The notes below the pieces were generated by a model. It was not told the origin of the DNA and did no database searches. It saw nothing but the letters and a program-made list of their open reading frames with translations. 32,293 bases of DNA from Catenulispora sp. (GTDB taxonomy: Bacteria > Actinomycetota > Actinomycetes > Streptomycetales > Catenulisporaceae): assembly GCA_013362315.1 (NCBI GenBank), contig JABFWL010000268.1, positions 1 through 32,293 of the forward strand. Reading direction: 5' to 3'. Positions 19,938-26,107 of the stretch are shown here, in pieces (position 1 is the first letter of the stretch; each line of letters starts with the position of its first letter). The translations under genes and the position numbers were made by a program.

Positions 19938-19968
19938 AACCTAGCCGGTCCGGTCGACAGCACGTCAA
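19938..19968 (-). promoter_or_regulatory. Candidate promoter of the kinase gene
   Basis: On the minus strand TTGACG (19968-19963) and TAGGTT (19943-19938) are 19 bp apart, about 95 bases upstream of the kinase start. The -35 overlaps the stop codon of the small acidic gene. The spacer is long; CTAGGT read one base earlier gives 18 bp. Confidence 0.35.
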
Positions 19969-20351
19969 GGTATTGCAGAATCGAGACCTGACGGGGTGTG
20001 GCGCGGGACCGCGGGATCGCCGGAGCCTGCGTAATCGGCGGCGGAGGCGGTGTCGGCGAAATCTGTGTCGGCGAAGTCTGTGTCGGCGAAGTCTGTGTCC
20101 GCAAAATCTATGCCGGCGAAGTCTGTGTCGGCGAAGTCCGTGCCGGCGAAGTCAGGGGACTCCGCCTCGTCGTCGAGTGCCGGCCGCAGCAGTTCGGTGT
20201 ACCGGTCCAGAGCCGCGAACAGCACCCGCAGCGGCACGTCCGGGCGCACCGCGCGGTCGATGAGCTGCTCGAGCGCTTCCCGGCCCATGGCGGCGATGTC
20301 GGCTTCCTGGATGTCCACGCCTGGCAAACGCCCTGCCAGCGCCCGGGTCAC
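19965..20351 (-). CDS. Small acidic protein with seven Asp-Phe-Ala pentad repeats
   Basis: A 128-residue protein I do not recognise. Residues 1-66 are probably helical (EADIAAMGREALEQLIDRAV, VLFAALDRYTELLRPAL). Residues 67-101 are seven head-to-tail pentads DFAGT, DFADT, DFAGI and four DFADT. A short tail with SAADYAG and PRHTPSG follows. Read as TDFAD/TDFAG the units resemble the pentapeptide-repeat consensus, but the array is too short for a full coil. The GTG start overlaps, as GTGA, the end of the open tail that follows the ATP-grasp stop codon, suggesting coupling to the upstream gene. No Shine-Dalgarno is seen. It could be a RiPP-like precursor (leader plus Asp/Thr-rich repeats) or a structural protein; both are inference. 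Confidence 0.6.
   Translation of the reverse strand: MTRALAGRLPGVDIQEADIAAMGREALEQLIDRAVRPDVPLRVLFAALDRYTELLRPALDDEAESPDFAGTDFADTDFAGIDFADTDFADTDFADTDFADTASAADYAGSGDPAVPRHTPSGLDSAIP
20049..20153. repeat. 15-bp tandem repeat, seven units
   Basis: Seven head-to-tail 15-bp units encode the DFADT-type pentads. Units differ at silent as well as coding positions (GATTTTGCG versus GACTTCGCC), so the array is not only a recent slippage product and the peptide sequence appears to have been kept. Confidence 0.9.
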
Positions 20352-20470
20352 GCGTGCGCGCCGGGTTTGTTCGGCGCTACAAACCGCGCCCGGTCCAGGT
20401 TGTCGTCAGCACTGGTGTCATCGGCGCCGGTGTCACCGGCGCCAGCCGCACCGTCGGGGAGCTGACCCGC
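20348..20470 (-). other. 40-codon open tail in frame after the ATP-grasp stop codon
   Basis: The frame of the ATP-grasp gene stays open for 40 sense codons after its TGA (20471-20473) and ends in a TGA that overlaps the GTG of the small acidic gene. It contains no ATG, GTG or TTG in that frame. The peptide includes pentads GDTGA, DDTSA and DDNLD, in the style of the neighbouring repeats. Inside the DNA a perfect 9-bp hairpin (20423-20431 with 20435-20443) is present. This may be a readthrough extension, the scar of a recent nonsense mutation, or chance. Confidence 0.45.
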
Positions 20471-21829
20471 TCACGCGGTGTAAGGTCCCTGTTGTTCCCA
20501 CTCGCGGATCGTCAGATAGTCGCGCTCGACCCACGCCGGGTCGGCCGCGCTGAGATAGACGAAGCCCGGGGAGGTCGCCGCGTCCCGGGTGACCGGCAGC
20601 TCCAGCCCGGCGCCGGCGACCGGCGCCACCGCGATCGCGGTCGGCAGCGCCTCCAGCGCCCCAGTCCACTGCGCCGAAGGCCGCACGATTCCCGGCCGCC
20701 GGTTCACCAGCACCACCCGGCGCATCGGCTCCGGCCAGGGCTCCGGCAGCCGGCCGGCGTGCCGCGCCAGGTCCCGCGGCGCCAGGATGCTCTCGGCGAA
20801 CAACCCGGTGTGCGAATATCCGAGGAACTTCTCCGCCACCCACGGCAGCACCCCGTCGGCCAGCCCCGGACCCGGGTCGACCAGCACCGGGCCGCGCGGG
20901 GACAGGACCACGCGGCTGTGCGCGGCGCCGTGCCGGATCCCGAGCGCGTCCAGGGCCCGCAGCACGTAGCCGTGCAGGGCCGCGATCTCGGCGGCGCGGG
21001 GGTCGGCGGGCTCGTCGAAGTCGGCCAGCGGGCCGACTGAGGGCGTGCTGTGCACGGTGTGGCGCCAGGTCTCGGCCACCAGGCGCACGCCTTCGGCCGC
21101 CACGGTGTCGACGGAGAACTCCGGGCCGGTCAGCAGTTCCTGGACGATCGCCGTACGGCGCACGCCGCCGAAGACGGCGGGCGCCTGCGTCGTCGGGTCC
21201 TGCGCTCCGGCGCTTGGGGTACCGAGCACTGCCGCGACCGCCGCGTGCACCTCCGCGGCGCTCCGGCAGAAGTACACCTGCTCGGGTCCGGCGCCGCCGG
21301 CCGGCCGCACCACTGCCCCGACGCTGCCGAGACCGGCGTCGGCGAACCAGGCCGCCCCCGCTTCGGGGGAGGCCGCCTCGGTCCCGAGCGGCGCGTCCAG
21401 GCCGGCTTCGTACAGCCGGCGCGCCATCGTGCGGCGGTCCCAGGGGAGACCGGAAGCGGCGTCGAGACCGGCACCGAGACCAGCCGGCTGAAGCTCCTCA
21501 CCGACAACGGCGCCTTGCTCATCAGGCCCGGTCGGCTCGGTCATCCCCGGCAGCCCGGTCAGGCCGGCCAGGATCTGCGCGGTCGGCACGCCGCAGGCGT
21601 GCCCGGCGGCGATCCGCACCACGCCGAGATTGCGCAGCCGCGTCGCCAGCCGGCCGATATTGTGGTCGTAGCCGAGGTCGAGGGCGTATTCGCCGGGCCG
21701 GAACGAGGCCTCCAGATGCGGCGGCAGCACCGGGCGGCTCTTGACGTGGACGCACTCCGCGCCGCGGCCCGTCAGCTCCCGAGTGAGCCACCGGCCGCTG
21801 CCGACGCCGTCCACCACCGCGATCCGCAT
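20471..21829 (-). CDS. ATP-grasp family protein with degenerate metal-binding signature (A)
   Basis: A 452-residue protein. Residues 1-95 form a Rossmann-like pre-ATP-grasp domain (MRIAVVDGVGSGRWLTREL). About 130-355 follow the order of carboxylate-amine ligases: MARRLYEAGLDAPLG, VGAVVRPAGGAG, the hinge VQELLTGPEFSVDTV, and GAAHSRVVLSPRGPVLVDPGPGLADG. Family members usually have Lys in VVKP, Glu in H-T/S-E and E-x-N/A-x-R at the end. Here these are Arg175, Arg306, and Asp318-Pro-Gly-Pro-Gly. The hinge Glu231 and Glu237 remain. A C-terminal domain (about 355-452) ends EWEQQGPYTA. It may be a pseudoenzyme or an unusual ligase. ATG 21829 follows GGAG-rich sequence; GTG three codons earlier is possible. 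Confidence 0.7.
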   Translation of the reverse strand: MRIAVVDGVGSGRWLTRELTGRGAECVHVKSRPVLPPHLEASFRPGEYALDLGYDHNIGRLATRLRNLGVVRIAAGHACGVPTAQILAGLTGLPGMTEPTGPDEQGAVVGEELQPAGLGAGLDAASGLPWDRRTMARRLYEAGLDAPLGTEAASPEAGAAWFADAGLGSVGAVVRPAGGAGPEQVYFCRSAAEVHAAVAAVLGTPSAGAQDPTTQAPAVFGGVRRTAIVQELLTGPEFSVDTVAAEGVRLVAETWRHTVHSTPSVGPLADFDEPADPRAAEIAALHGYVLRALDALGIRHGAAHSRVVLSPRGPVLVDPGPGLADGVLPWVAEKFLGYSHTGLFAESILAPRDLARHAGRLPEPWPEPMRRVVLVNRRPGIVRPSAQWTGALEALPTAIAVAPVAGAGLELPVTRDAATSPGFVYLSAADPAWVERDYLTIREWEQQGPYTA

Positions 21830-21984
21830 GCTCCGCACCCGCTCCCCAGCACCGCTGACCCACCACCGATGCACCACTGATGTCCCGTGTTCGTCCCGTG
21901 CCGTCGCGCGCGCCCGCGCGCGGCGGGCGACGTTCCGCCTCCCGACTCTAGGCACATTCGCAGAGCCCTGGCACCCACCCGTTC

Positions 21985-22004
21985 GGGTAGGTGATCACCT
22001 GCCC
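21985..22004. promoter_or_regulatory. Near-perfect 20-bp palindrome in the divergent ATP-grasp promoter region
   Basis: GGGTAGGTGATCACCTGCCC is palindromic except for one T/G pair; its core AGGTGATCACCT is perfect. It lies 155 bp from gene A and 90 bp from gene B, so one bound dimer could control both. A partial inverted repeat ACCCG-TT-CGGGT overlaps its left side (21977-21988). Confidence 0.5.
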
Positions 22005-22094
22005 GGCTTCCCGCAGGTCACCGGCCGCCGCCCGCCGCCGCCTACCCCAACGGGCAGTTGTCGCCCCGGCCGCCGCCCGCGGATGCTGGGAACC

Positions 22095-23660
22095 ATGAGT
22101 CGTCTCGTGATCGGCAACCGGCTGCCCGGGCCGCTGGCACACCGTCTGGTGTGGCTGGCCCGGGCGGGTGATGTGGTGGTGTTGCCGTCGCACCCGAGGG
22201 GGGAGTTCCTGGAACGCCTCCGCCGGTTCGCCGCCCTGCCGGCCGGCGAACCGGCGATCGCGGTCCCCCCAGCGGGACGGGCGGGTGCCGGGCGGCTCGA
22301 TGACGACCGGCTCGCCGTCCCGGGCTTCGTGGGGGAGCTCCGAGCTCTGGCGGGTGCCCGCGGCGTGGATCGGATTCTGCCGGTCCGGTCCGACGCGGCG
22401 ATCCGGCGCCTGGCCTGTGCGGCGGGCCTGGACCGATCGCGCGCGGCCGCGGACCCCGCCGGGCGTGACGGCGGGCTGGTCGACACTCTGCTAGCTGATA
22501 CTCCGCTGGTCGACAGTCTGCGGGTGGACACGCTGGCGCGGTTCCGGGCGGTCGCGGCCGGGAACCGCGTCCCGATCCCCGAGGGCCGGGTCTGCACCAG
22601 CCCGCGGGAGGCCGAGGAGTTCGTGTGGCGGCTGCTGTGCGGCGGCCGTTCGGCTCTCGTGCGGCCGGAGCCCGATCCCGACAGCGGCGGCAGCGGGGGC
22701 AAGAGTGGCAGCGCCGGCATCCGAGGCGGCATCGGTGGCGGCGGCGAGCTCAACGAACTGATCGTCCCGGTCGGCGGCCGCCCCGGCGCCGACGCCGAGA
22801 CCACGGTCGCCGTCGGCGACCGCGAGACGCTCGGCGAGTACCTGGCCAAGAACTGGCGCCGCTACTCCGGCGGCACCGGGCGGCCGGTGGTCGTCGAGCA
22901 CTACATCCACGACTGCGGTCGACTGCGTTTGGAGTACCAGGTGAGCGACGACGAGGCGAAGCTGCTCTTCCACGGCTACGCGCGCACCGCGTCGGCGGAC
23001 GCCGCCCTGGTGCTGCCCACGCCGGCCGAGCGGGTCCCGGACGTGGCCGGGCTGCTGGCCGAGGCCGCGCAGGTGATGGAGGCCGTGCGCGGCCTCGGGC
23101 ACCGCGGCCACGCCGCCCTGGACGCGGTCGTCACGCCGTCCGGGCGGGTGTTGTTCACCGGGCTGCGCGAGGGCCTGTCCGCGGCGACGCATCTGGACGC
23201 GGCGGCCCGGCTGGCTGTCGGCGACGGCTACCTGTGCACCAGGGTGCTGATCGCGCGGGACCGGATCGCATGGTCCTCCTATACCGCCGCCGAGGCGCTG
23301 CTGGAGCGGCGCGGCCTGGCCTTCGACCCGGGGACCCGGACCGGGGTGCTGCTGACCGGGGACGACTTCAGCGGCGACGACTTCAGCGGCGACGCGTTCG
23401 GCGGCGCCGACGGTGACGGTCGCGGCGGCGCCTACAGTGCTGACGGCACCGAAAGCACCGCCACTGCCAGTCGCGCCGGCGCCGGCGTGGAGTCCGCCTC
23501 CGCGGGCGTCCCGACCGGACAGTTCCTCGCGATCGGACGGGACCAGGCGCACGCCGCCGAGCTCGAAGCCGCGGCCCTCGCGGCGTTCGAGGCGGCCCTC
23601 GCGTGGGACCTCGAACCGGACGACAGCCCGGCCGCAAGCGTGACGTCCCGCTCCGGCTGA
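22095..23660 (+). CDS. PGM1-like peptide ligase-related ATP-grasp protein with degenerate signature (B)
   Basis: A 521-residue protein. The start MSRLVIGNRLPGPLAHRLVWLARAGDVVVLPSHP (1-34) is the pre-ATP-grasp module seen in proteins related to PGM1, the peptide-peptide ligase of pheganomycin biosynthesis. The ATP-grasp part runs about 150-375: SALVRPEPD, VVVEHYIHDCGRLRLEY, GHAALDAVVTPSG, RVLFTGLREGLSAATHL. In active relatives the last block reads like FTE-x-N-x-R-x-x-x-STHL; here Glu, Asn and Arg are Gly356, Arg358 and Gly360 or neighbours, and the expected Lys is Arg190. Pentad repeats occur at 129-148 and 423-437, and a Gly/Ser insert at 198-217. It is divergent from gene A and ends at a strong terminator. 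Confidence 0.75.
   Translation: MSRLVIGNRLPGPLAHRLVWLARAGDVVVLPSHPRGEFLERLRRFAALPAGEPAIAVPPAGRAGAGRLDDDRLAVPGFVGELRALAGARGVDRILPVRSDAAIRRLACAAGLDRSRAAADPAGRDGGLVDTLLADTPLVDSLRVDTLARFRAVAAGNRVPIPEGRVCTSPREAEEFVWRLLCGGRSALVRPEPDPDSGGSGGKSGSAGIRGGIGGGGELNELIVPVGGRPGADAETTVAVGDRETLGEYLAKNWRRYSGGTGRPVVVEHYIHDCGRLRLEYQVSDDEAKLLFHGYARTASADAALVLPTPAERVPDVAGLLAEAAQVMEAVRGLGHRGHAALDAVVTPSGRVLFTGLREGLSAATHLDAAARLAVGDGYLCTRVLIARDRIAWSSYTAAEALLERRGLAFDPGTRTGVLLTGDDFSGDDFSGDAFGGADGDGRGGAYSADGTESTATASRAGAGVESASAGVPTGQFLAIGRDQAHAAELEAAALAAFEAALAWDLEPDDSPAASVTSRSG
22479..22538. repeat. 15-bp repeat, four units, coding [VA]D[TS] pentads
   Basis: Units encode VDTLL, ADTPL, VDSLR and VDTLA (residues 129-148 of ATP-grasp B). 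Codons vary between units. Confidence 0.75.
23361..23405. repeat. 15-bp repeat, three units, coding DDFSG pentads
   Basis: Two exact GACGACTTCAGCGGC units are followed by GACGCGTTCGGCGGC, encoding DDFSG, DDFSG and DAFGG at residues 423-437 of ATP-grasp B. Confidence 0.85.
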
Positions 23661-23706
23661 CAAGGCGGCCGCCGTGGCAGGTGGCGGGTCGCATGATGGC
23701 GGCCGA

Positions 23707-23746
23707 GCTCGGGCGCCGGTTGGTGGGACCGGCGCCCGAGCATTTT
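23707..23746. terminator. Strong terminator between ATP-grasp B and the LuxR-type regulator
   Basis: A perfect 14-bp stem (23707-23720 with 23728-23741) and a 7-base loop, followed by ATTTT. It lies between two convergent genes. Confidence 0.85.
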
Positions 23747-23831
23747 CGTCGTGCCGGTCAGCAGCTGCCGCGCCGCGCAGTGGCCATCGGCTCCGGGTCC
23801 GTCAGGTCGGGGTCATCAGCCCACCGGGCCG

Positions 23832-25931
23832 TCACGTCGGGCCGCCGGGCACGAGGACGAACCGGGCGATCTCCACCCGCGACCCGATCCCCAGCTTGCG
23901 GAAGATGTTGCGCAGGTGGAACTTCACCGTCTCCGGCGAGCAGCGGATCCGCTTCGCGATCTGCTGGTTGGTCAGGCCCTGGACCACCAGCCGCGCCACC
24001 GCCTGCTCCCGGCGGCTCAGGCTCGACCAGTCCGCGTGCGCGCCCGACGCCTCGACCGCATCGCCGCCGGCGACCGCGTCGACCGCATCCTCCGTAGCGT
24101 CTTCGGCATCTTCGTCAGCCTCGCCGCCTTCATCGACGGCGCACGCCGCCGCGGCGGCCTCGATCGCCCCGGCGCGCAACGTGTCCACGCCACACGCGGC
24201 GCTCATCGTGCGTTTGCCGGGATTCTTCAACGAGTCCTGCAGGCCCAACGCCTCCGTCAGGTCGGCCCACAGCGACATGTACTTCTCCGAGGCCGAGCAG
24301 TCGCCGTGCAGCAGCGCCACCCCGGCCAGGTTCCGGTAGGCGGCGGCCTCGCCTTCGCGCCAGCCCGAGCCCAGGCCCAGCTCCACGGTGCGGTGATAGT
24401 GCTCCCCGGCCGCGTCGAGGCGGCCGCCGGCGTATTCGGCCATGCCCAGGCCCAGGTGCATGGCGGCCTGCGCGCGCAGATCCCCGGCGGCGCAGGCGGC
24501 GGCCAGGCCGATGCCCGCCATCCGGCTCCACTCGCGCAGGTGCCGCCGGGCGTGGAAGTAGCCGCGCAGCGCGTCCGGCACGATCCAGCAGACCGCCGGG
24601 GCGCCGCTGCGGCGATGGTGCCGGACCAGCGCCAGCAGGTTGTGACGCTCGGCGTCCAGCCAGGCGAGGGCGGCCTCGCGGTCGGTCAGGAAACCGGATG
24701 GTGCGTCAGCAGGCTGGTCAGAGGCCGAGTCCAGCAGTGGAACAGCGTGTTGATCGAGCTCAGTTGTCTGATGTCTGTGGTCTGCGGGATCGTCGCCGAA
24801 GCTCGTGCACACCTGCCTGGGCAACCGCACCAGGCAGGGATTCACCAGGTCCGCGGCATCGTGCAGCCGGGCCAGCATCCAGTCCAGGTGCCGTGCCTCG
24901 GCGGCGCGCACCGCGTCCGGTTCCTCGTCGGCGGACAGCCGGTCGGTGGCGAACAGCCGGGCCAGGGAGTGCAGGCTGTAGCGGCCCGGTGGCGACTCGG
25001 CCCGCACCACGCTGCGGTCGGCCAGCCGGTCCAGCGCCTCCCGGGCCTCCTCCCGCGCCATCCCGGCGGCCAGCGCCGCGGCGTCGGCGCCGAAGTCGTA
25101 GCCGCGCAGCAGCGCCAGACGGCGGAACAGCTTCCGGTCGCCGTCCTCCAACGCCTCGTAGGAGGAGGCGAGGACGCCGTGCACGGTGGTGTCGCCGGCT
25201 GTGAGCCGGCGCAGCCGCCGGCCCTCGTCGCGCAGCTGGTCGCAGAGGTCTCCGACGCTCATCTGCGGCCGGGACAGCAGCCGGGCGGCCGCGATCCGGA
25301 TCGCCAGCGGCAGGTGCCCGCACAGCGCCAGCAGGTCCCGGGCGTCCTCCTCGCCGGTCCAGCGCGGGCCCAGCAGCCGGGCCAGCATCGCCGCCGCCTC
25401 GGCGTCCGGCATCGGCCCCAGCCGCAGCGGCACCGCCCCGGCCAGGCCGCCCAGCCAGTTCCGGCTGGTGACCACGGCCAGCGCGGCCGGCCCCGGCGGC
25501 AGCAGCGGCCGCACCTGCGCCTCGTCCGCGGCGTCGTCCAGCACCACCAGCACCCGCTGCCCGGCCAGCACGGTGCGGAACATGCCGACCAGCTCGTCCG
25601 GATCGTCCGGGAGCGGCCCGTCGGCGCCCAGCGCGCGCAGGAACCGGCGCAGCACATCGGCCACCGGCACCGGGGAGCCGGTGTAGCCGCCGAGGTCGGC
25701 GTACAGGTGGGCGTCCGGGAACGAGCCGCCGACCAGCCGGGCCGCCCGCACCGCCAGCGCGGTCTTCCCGGTGCCGCCGGCGCCGGTCACCGCGAAGAGC
25801 GCGGCGCCGTCCGGGGGGTAGGAGCCCGGGTCGGCGAGCACGGCGAGCTCGGCCGGCCGCCCGGTGAAGTCGGTGAGGTCCGGCGGTAGCAGCCGGGCCC
25901 GGGTCGGCGCCCAGCCGAGAGCTCCCCGCAT
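23832..25931 (-). CDS. AfsR-like STAND ATPase regulator with C-terminal LuxR helix-turn-helix
   Basis: A 699-residue regulator. An NB-ARC-type ATPase occupies about 20-300, with P-loop TGAGGTGKTAL (49-59), Walker B RVLVVLDDAAD, sensor VVTSRN and CGHLPLAIRIAAARL. A winged-helix and helical part follows (LARLFATDRLSADEEP), then a TPR-like region (MHLGLGMAEYAGGRLDAAGEHYHRTVELG). After an acidic Glu/Asp/Ala linker (about 595-630) comes a LuxR-type DNA-binding domain (LSRREQAVARLVVQGLTNQQIAKRIRC to the end). AfsR itself has an N-terminal SARP DNA-binding domain; here that is missing and the DNA-binding domain is at the other end. ATG 25929-25931 follows a GGGGGAG stretch and begins next to the DFTGR motif that opens the family. 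Confidence 0.9.
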   Translation of the reverse strand: MRGALGWAPTRARLLPPDLTDFTGRPAELAVLADPGSYPPDGAALFAVTGAGGTGKTALAVRAARLVGGSFPDAHLYADLGGYTGSPVPVADVLRRFLRALGADGPLPDDPDELVGMFRTVLAGQRVLVVLDDAADEAQVRPLLPPGPAALAVVTSRNWLGGLAGAVPLRLGPMPDAEAAAMLARLLGPRWTGEEDARDLLALCGHLPLAIRIAAARLLSRPQMSVGDLCDQLRDEGRRLRRLTAGDTTVHGVLASSYEALEDGDRKLFRRLALLRGYDFGADAAALAAGMAREEAREALDRLADRSVVRAESPPGRYSLHSLARLFATDRLSADEEPDAVRAAEARHLDWMLARLHDAADLVNPCLVRLPRQVCTSFGDDPADHRHQTTELDQHAVPLLDSASDQPADAPSGFLTDREAALAWLDAERHNLLALVRHHRRSGAPAVCWIVPDALRGYFHARRHLREWSRMAGIGLAAACAAGDLRAQAAMHLGLGMAEYAGGRLDAAGEHYHRTVELGLGSGWREGEAAAYRNLAGVALLHGDCSASEKYMSLWADLTEALGLQDSLKNPGKRTMSAACGVDTLRAGAIEAAAAACAVDEGGEADEDAEDATEDAVDAVAGGDAVEASGAHADWSSLSRREQAVARLVVQGLTNQQIAKRIRCSPETVKFHLRNIFRKLGIGSRVEIARFVLVPGGPT

Positions 25932-25971
25932 GCTCCCCCCTGGATCAAAGGCCTGTTTCCCGATGTGACTC

Positions 25972-26107
25972 CAGCGATTCCAGCCCAGGCCAGCGCATTC
26001 CAGCGTGGTCCGGGCAGACCGGTGTCGAGTGAACCGATGTTCAGTTCTTGTGAAGACTATCGCACGGAGGGTCACGACGGCTACACAGGATGACGCTGGA
26101 ATCGCTG
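25972..26107. promoter_or_regulatory. Three copies of a 13-bp motif upstream of the LuxR-type regulator
   Basis: CAGCGATTCCAGC at 25972-25984 has an exact inverted copy, GCTGGAATCGCTG, at 26095-26107. A near copy with one extra base, CAGCGCATTCCAGC, is at 25991-26004. They lie 41 to 176 bases upstream of the regulator's start codon, flanking its expected promoter. Candidate binding sites, possibly for autoregulation. Confidence 0.45.

Follow-up and report, generated by a model that had tools for sequence, protein, structure and literature searches.

A divergent pair of ATP-grasp proteins with altered active sites, probably left over from an eroding gene cluster in Catenulispora

What keeps two neighboring ligase-like genes open once both have lost residues on which enzymes of their fold rely? 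The question is raised by a contig of 32,293 nucleotides (JABFWL010000268.1, here C423; the whole of it is called the window) in the draft genome of a Catenulispora sp. (GCA_013362315.1, here G000; 7.97 Mb, 770 contigs, 81.6% complete). Two divergent open reading frames (ORFs), separated by a 265-bp intergenic stretch, encode protein A (20471-21829, minus strand, 452 aa), an L-amino acid ligase-like ATP-grasp protein with the replacements K132R, K175R, E306R, and R322G, and protein B (22095-23660, plus strand, 521 aa), a PGM1-like ATP-grasp protein with K147L, K190R, E356G, N358R, and R360G. Each has a single match in its own genome, so no second copy is present in this 81.6% complete assembly. 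We consider it likely that an eroding gene cluster has left A and B behind, both without normal catalysis, with A retained as a pseudoenzyme and B either a pseudogene of recent origin or, like A, a retained shell.

Active-site residues of proteins A and B

Protein A is related to the L-amino acid ligase family over most of its length, both by sequence (PDB entry 30vh, E 1e-32) and by predicted fold, and structure prediction returns that fold intact. Its match to Pfam ATP-grasp_4 reaches 25.7 bits, just under the cut-off of 27, whereas the A protein of the congener G007 scores 34.4, above it; against NCBIfam PRK07206 it scores 184 bits, below the cut-off of 302. Protein B contains the PreAtp-grasp (PF18604, 74.5 bits) and PGM1_C (PF18105, 25.3 bits) domains, both above the Pfam cut-off, and matches PGM1 (3wvq) with an E value of 1.5e-35. 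The predicted-fold model of B, made from only four input sequences, has a predicted local distance difference test (pLDDT) score of 54.5 and a predicted template modeling (pTM) score of 0.42.

As a yardstick for catalytic ATP-grasp features, such as the positive residues of the linker and core (usually Lys) and the ExN motif, we used those given in the available part of PMC4431377; the assignment of window residues to these features is our reading of the alignments. Counts refer to 28 relatives of A (29 loci aligned, L032 dropped as misaligned), the 29 being the loci returned for the best matches of the A search rather than every match listed, and to nine relatives of B (11 aligned, without L050 and L052, which are distant or remnant).

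An earlier, sequence-only reading had described a divergent ATP-grasp pair that lost its usual catalytic signature and kept the hinge Glu. Its residue numbers (R175, R306, and D318-G322 in A; R190 and FTGLREG, 354-360, in B) are exact, and the replaced positions are strongly conserved in the relatives of both proteins. In A, the usual lysine has become arginine, with the positive charge kept, at linker position 132 (K in 26/28 relatives) and at core position 175 in VVRP (K in 27/28). The residue aligned with the acidic position of the fourth strand in the kinase-like half is R306 (AAHSR), where 26 of the 28 relatives have E, and in the DPGPG block G322 stands in place of an R found in 27. D318 replaces the E of 24 relatives and also occurs in the congeners G006 and G007, in which the other residues are intact. 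Position 320 is G in 22/28 and N in just two, which makes it most likely that A never had this Asn; its last-strand ExN site reads D-P-G, and relatives mostly have E-x-G there (E in 24, G in 22). The hinge residue E231 is present (E in 20/28).

In B, the positive linker residue is gone, L147 occupying a position that is K in all nine relatives, and R190 (LVRP; K in 9/9) keeps the charge of the core residue, not the lysine. The last-strand ExN has become G-L-R: G356 and R358 replace an E and an N that are each found in 9/9 relatives, and G360 replaces an R found in 7/9. The acidic D343, assigned by alignment to the fourth strand, and the hinge residue E268 are both kept and are both present in 9/9 relatives. 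The claim that the two neighbors had lost the same set thus stands for K175, E306, and R322 of A and for K190, E356, N358, and R360 of B; it does not extend to the Asn of A, nor to D318, and it had left out the linker lysine, which is changed in both proteins. Both ligases have lost residues that in the superfamily hold the ATP phosphates and Mg2+, and we infer from the residues that neither activates a carboxylate by the normal ATP-grasp mechanism.

A distant homolog of A in another genome (G038; L063, 8935-10104, minus strand) has Arg at the Glu306 position and Ala at the Glu318 position. A wider family of dead ligases starting from this R306 (L023/L063) was considered and set aside as a lone case with no close relative in 295 genus genomes: six of these match the homolog at E <= 1e-40, namely itself and five at 34-40% identity, those five being unaligned.

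Selection on protein A and gene content across the genus

The altered A is shared with a second species. The A protein of G004, truncated by a contig end, has HSR and VDPGPG as in the window, and the two genes have derived codons in common: CGC/CGG at 306 against GAA/GAG, a Pro codon at 321 (A321P), and GGG/GGA at 322 against CGG. E306R, A321P, and R322G were therefore probably inherited from a common ancestor of the window and G004, as judged from these codons. In G007, the catalytic Lys, Glu, and Arg of A are present (VVKP, HSE, IDPGAR), as are the Lys, Glu, Asn, and Arg of B (VKQ, NEVNGR), and the A of G006 keeps Lys, Glu306, and Arg322 (VVKP, HSE, IDLGTR).

After these losses, A evolved under purifying selection. 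In codon-model fits written for this analysis, the window and G004 A genes give an omega (ratio of nonsynonymous to synonymous rates) of 0.153, with a likelihood ratio (LR) of 78.3 against 1; over 269 codons, 41/37/74 differences fall at codon positions 1/2/3. By segment, omega lies between 0.067 and 0.212, and the segment that holds R306 and G322 (261-330) is 81% identical with an omega of 0.104. A four-species fit over 264 codons gives 0.234 for the window, 0.126 for G004, and 0.412 for the internal branch under the free model, and rejects an omega of 1 on both tips (LR 72.0). With equal tip times, omega is 0.197 for the window (1 rejected, LR 52.2) and 0.158 for G004 (LR 63.1). The same site provides a neutral yardstick, namely the B remnants of G001 and G005, with an omega of 0.871 over 160 codons (LR 0.12; differences 12/21/9), and the positive controls from these two genomes give 0.137 (LuxR), 0.071 (kinase), and 0.051 (methyltransferase). 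The B remnants fit neutral drift, as debris would; the A genes of the window and G004 do not. The succession expected of a retained pseudoenzyme, with catalytic residues lost before a split and purifying selection after it, is thus found for A with one sister species. Because the losses would predate the split and selection followed, A most likely acts through its fold, by binding a ligand or a partner, and not by catalysis.

We compared ten genomes of the genus, including that of the window (G000-G009). A kinase-PQQ flank is found in nine of them and a close LuxR-family flank (71-100% identity, best piece) also in nine, G009 having neither in close form; in the window, the LuxR-family regulator occupies 23832-26075. 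Kinase and LuxR share one contig in G000, G002, G003, G005, G006, and G007 and are on separate contigs in G001, G004, and G008. Between these conserved flanks, G007 carries A, a transporter gene, a chorismate-binding/glutamine amidotransferase fusion, B, and genes for a short-chain dehydrogenase/reductase (SDR), a carbamoyltransferase, and a methyltransferase; next to them is a BTAD-domain (SARP-type) regulator. This G007 cluster, at L056 9979-19810 and L057 2-598, appears intact.

When 13 loci of nine genomes were searched by tblastn with the G007 proteins, A was found in the window, G004, G006, and G007, and B at full length only in the window and G007. Six congeners (G001, G002, G003, G005, G006, and G008) retain pieces of B at the site, that of G006 being N-terminal and lying beside A. 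A complete SDR is found in G003 and fragments of it in G001, G002, G005, and G008; one piece of the chorismate enzyme is left in G003, and in these 13 loci no match to the transporter or the carbamoyltransferase was obtained at the site outside G007. The methyltransferase is present in all but the window, with 71-90% identity to that of G007 in seven other congeners. At the loci where it survives (L058, L064, L065, L066, L067, L096, and L097), most of the remaining cluster is missing or fragmentary. The window site is without the transporter, chorismate/amidotransferase, SDR, carbamoyltransferase, and methyltransferase genes; the window genome has a weak match to the G007 methyltransferase (31% identity over 84 residues) and, on other contigs, only distant relatives of the carbamoyltransferase (38-39% identity).

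The pieces of B and SDR, together with the whole SDR and the chorismate-enzyme piece in G003, point to loss elsewhere and not to gain in G007. A and B would then be the remaining amide- or peptide-forming ligases of a small-molecule cluster that once stood at this site in the genus and eroded species by species, the window having lost the other genes listed above. E306R and R322G were probably in place already in the ancestor shared by the window and G004, and A would have been kept under purifying selection from then on. The ten genomes can be read as a series of cluster decay, from the whole cluster (G007) through A with a piece of B (G006) and the altered A (window, G004) to pieces only. 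In this series, one ligase is kept by selection after loss of its active site, and the neutral yardstick comes from what is left of the partner gene in other members of the genus.

Alternative explanations

Several observations weigh against a retained A in an eroding cluster. The whole cluster is known from one genome only, and the altered A from a single other species, in which the first ~175 residues are lost at a contig end with unalignable sequence just before; the R of G004 that aligns at 175 sits in this low-complexity, unalignable sequence, so neither a shared R175 nor an intact G004 gene is supported. Both Lys-to-Arg changes in A retain a positive charge. Without equal tip times, placing the window tip alone at an omega of 1 costs just 2.3 log-likelihood (lnL) units relative to the one-ratio model, a weak penalty because synonymous changes can be shifted to G004. 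The other A pairs are near synonymous saturation (dS, synonymous divergence, 1.65-1.95), and the neutral yardstick is one remnant pair, less diverged than the window and G004. Finally, 13 of the 40 A sites that are invariant in G006, G007, and 12 chosen outgroups are changed in the window, several of them beyond the listed catalytic set, which fits relaxed constraint.

The same changes also count in favor of A and B being plain pseudogenes caught early, their frames open only through G+C-rich DNA, which we regard as unlikely. More sites are changed in the window only than in G007 only for B (56 against 17, with eight chosen outgroup rows) and for A (39 against 15), and at an 85% cut-off the changed sites of A number 23/88 in the window, 8/71 in G006, and 3/70 in G007. 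B has changed at 10 of 35 sites invariant in the chosen relatives and carries low-complexity insertions, and a stretch without counterpart in the G007 protein holds an in-frame 15-bp tandem expansion (23357-23411, plus strand); in six congeners just pieces of B are left. Against decay, however, A has an omega of about 0.15-0.2 after the shared losses compared with 0.87 for the B remnants at the site, and B runs for 521 codons without a stop or, across eight gap runs relative to the G007 protein, a frameshift. The excess in the window B is also modest at a looser cut-off (8/9 rows), with 16/64 sites changed against 13/74 for the G007 B versus eight outgroups. For B the residue changes are known from the window alone, and the omega of its window branch, 0.143 and 0.181 in three-taxon fits, belongs to a branch that spans the time before the losses, with synonymous sites saturated and outgroup branches at their upper bound. 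A recent pseudogene and a second retained shell fit the B data equally well.

A may have been repurposed after the pathway collapsed, as a regulator that binds a nucleotide or another ligand without catalysis, R306 of A and R358 of B replacing Mg2+-binding residues; we hold this variant to be doubtful. Such proteins would be the ATP-grasp equivalent of metal-free pseudokinases.

A conserved system in which A and B are paired, non-catalytic ATP-grasp proteins, one of two options offered by the sequence-only reading, now looks very improbable. The same residue classes are lost in both proteins, which also have a conserved intergenic region in common, and the residues support well the idea that the two are non-catalytic. 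The pairing does not follow, since the G007 pair keeps its catalytic residues, and a search of 99 relatives with each of A and B, and of 14 family genomes again with B, brought up no other genome with a dead pair. No B was found in G004, where the assembly breaks at the site, and the A of G006 lies beside a mere piece of B. A paired dead-ligase family was for these reasons dropped as the principal explanation, and the relatives gave no distinct dead-pair family. It had been foreseen that canonical homologs would mark the changes as private mutations: this describes B and the pair, whereas the changes of A are shared with G004.

Least probable of all is continued ligase activity of A and B through a changed active site, with Arg in the role of Lys and a different metal site: charge is kept at A132, A175, and B190, as are D318 in A and D343 in B, and the available part of PMC4431377 describes an ATP-grasp clade with rearranged lysines, but E306R puts a positive charge where 26 of 28 relatives have E, R322G removes the Arg of 27 of 28, B is without both the E and the N of ExN (9/9 in relatives), the site is without the partner pathway genes, and nothing was found in support of the new metal site once suggested.

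Neighboring elements and known ATP-grasp systems

Among the elements around A and B, the A-B intergenic stretch contains a motif pair, CTACCCSAACGGGY, at 21974-22061 (no strand assigned), with inverted copies at 21977-21990 (minus strand) and 22042-22055 (plus strand). The arrangement is operator-like and conserved in the genus: the two blocks upstream of B that hold it differ very little among the six genomes compared, including those where B has been reduced to pieces. Exact matches to CTACCCSAACGGGY number 0 to 4 per genome; an exact pair stands at the site in G000, G002, G003, G005, and G007, and one exact copy in G001, G006, and G008. The pair looks like a putative operator for A/B or for the downstream methyltransferase.

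Downstream of B lies a terminator-like hairpin (23707-23741, plus strand) of 15 pairs. A core of 28 nt, embedded in a longer conserved stretch, does not differ between the window, G004, and G006 and was absent from the other ten loci scanned with three mismatches allowed; the T-rich tail is found in the window only. The terminator scan returned this one hit against 0.6 expected, a promoter scan of 20300-23900 found none, and Rfam gave no match in the window at gathering thresholds. On the other side, 3' of A, a small ORF (19965-20351, minus strand) is conserved in the genus even at loci that lack A and is probably not part of the A/B pair. Over its first ~60 residues, identity to seven other loci of the genus is 79-93%; in the window, these residues are followed by a 15-bp tandem repeat encoding pentapeptide-like DFADT repeats. 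No regulator gene was called between the kinase and this ORF in the window, G004, or G006.

We found no literature on Catenulispora biosynthetic gene clusters with ATP-grasp proteins, and searches for ATP-grasp pseudoenzymes, inactive members, or pseudogenes yielded little beyond TTLL12 and nothing evidently on decay of the fold, which does not prove absence in print. As this literature is sparse, A is a useful candidate for testing reuse of the fold without catalysis. TTLL12 itself (PMC3520985), which surfaced as an ATP-grasp pseudoenzyme, is a human TTL-family protein from another branch. Also comparable are the truncated inactive ATP-grasp proteins of graspetide loci (branch 8 in the available part of PMC8939145), which are likewise inactive proteins at biosynthetic loci; according to the same text they are without a domain, whereas in A and B the losses are point changes in full-length proteins. 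By family, B is nearest to PGM1 (3wvq), the pheganomycin peptide ligase, with which it shares the PreAtp-grasp and PGM1_C domains and from which it differs in both lysines, in the E, N, and R of the last block, and in its low-complexity insertions. The closest relatives of A are the L-amino acid ligases (BacD/YwfE, BL00235 3vot, RizA 4wd3, and 30vh), from which A is set apart by the replacement of Lys132, Lys175, Glu306, and Arg322.

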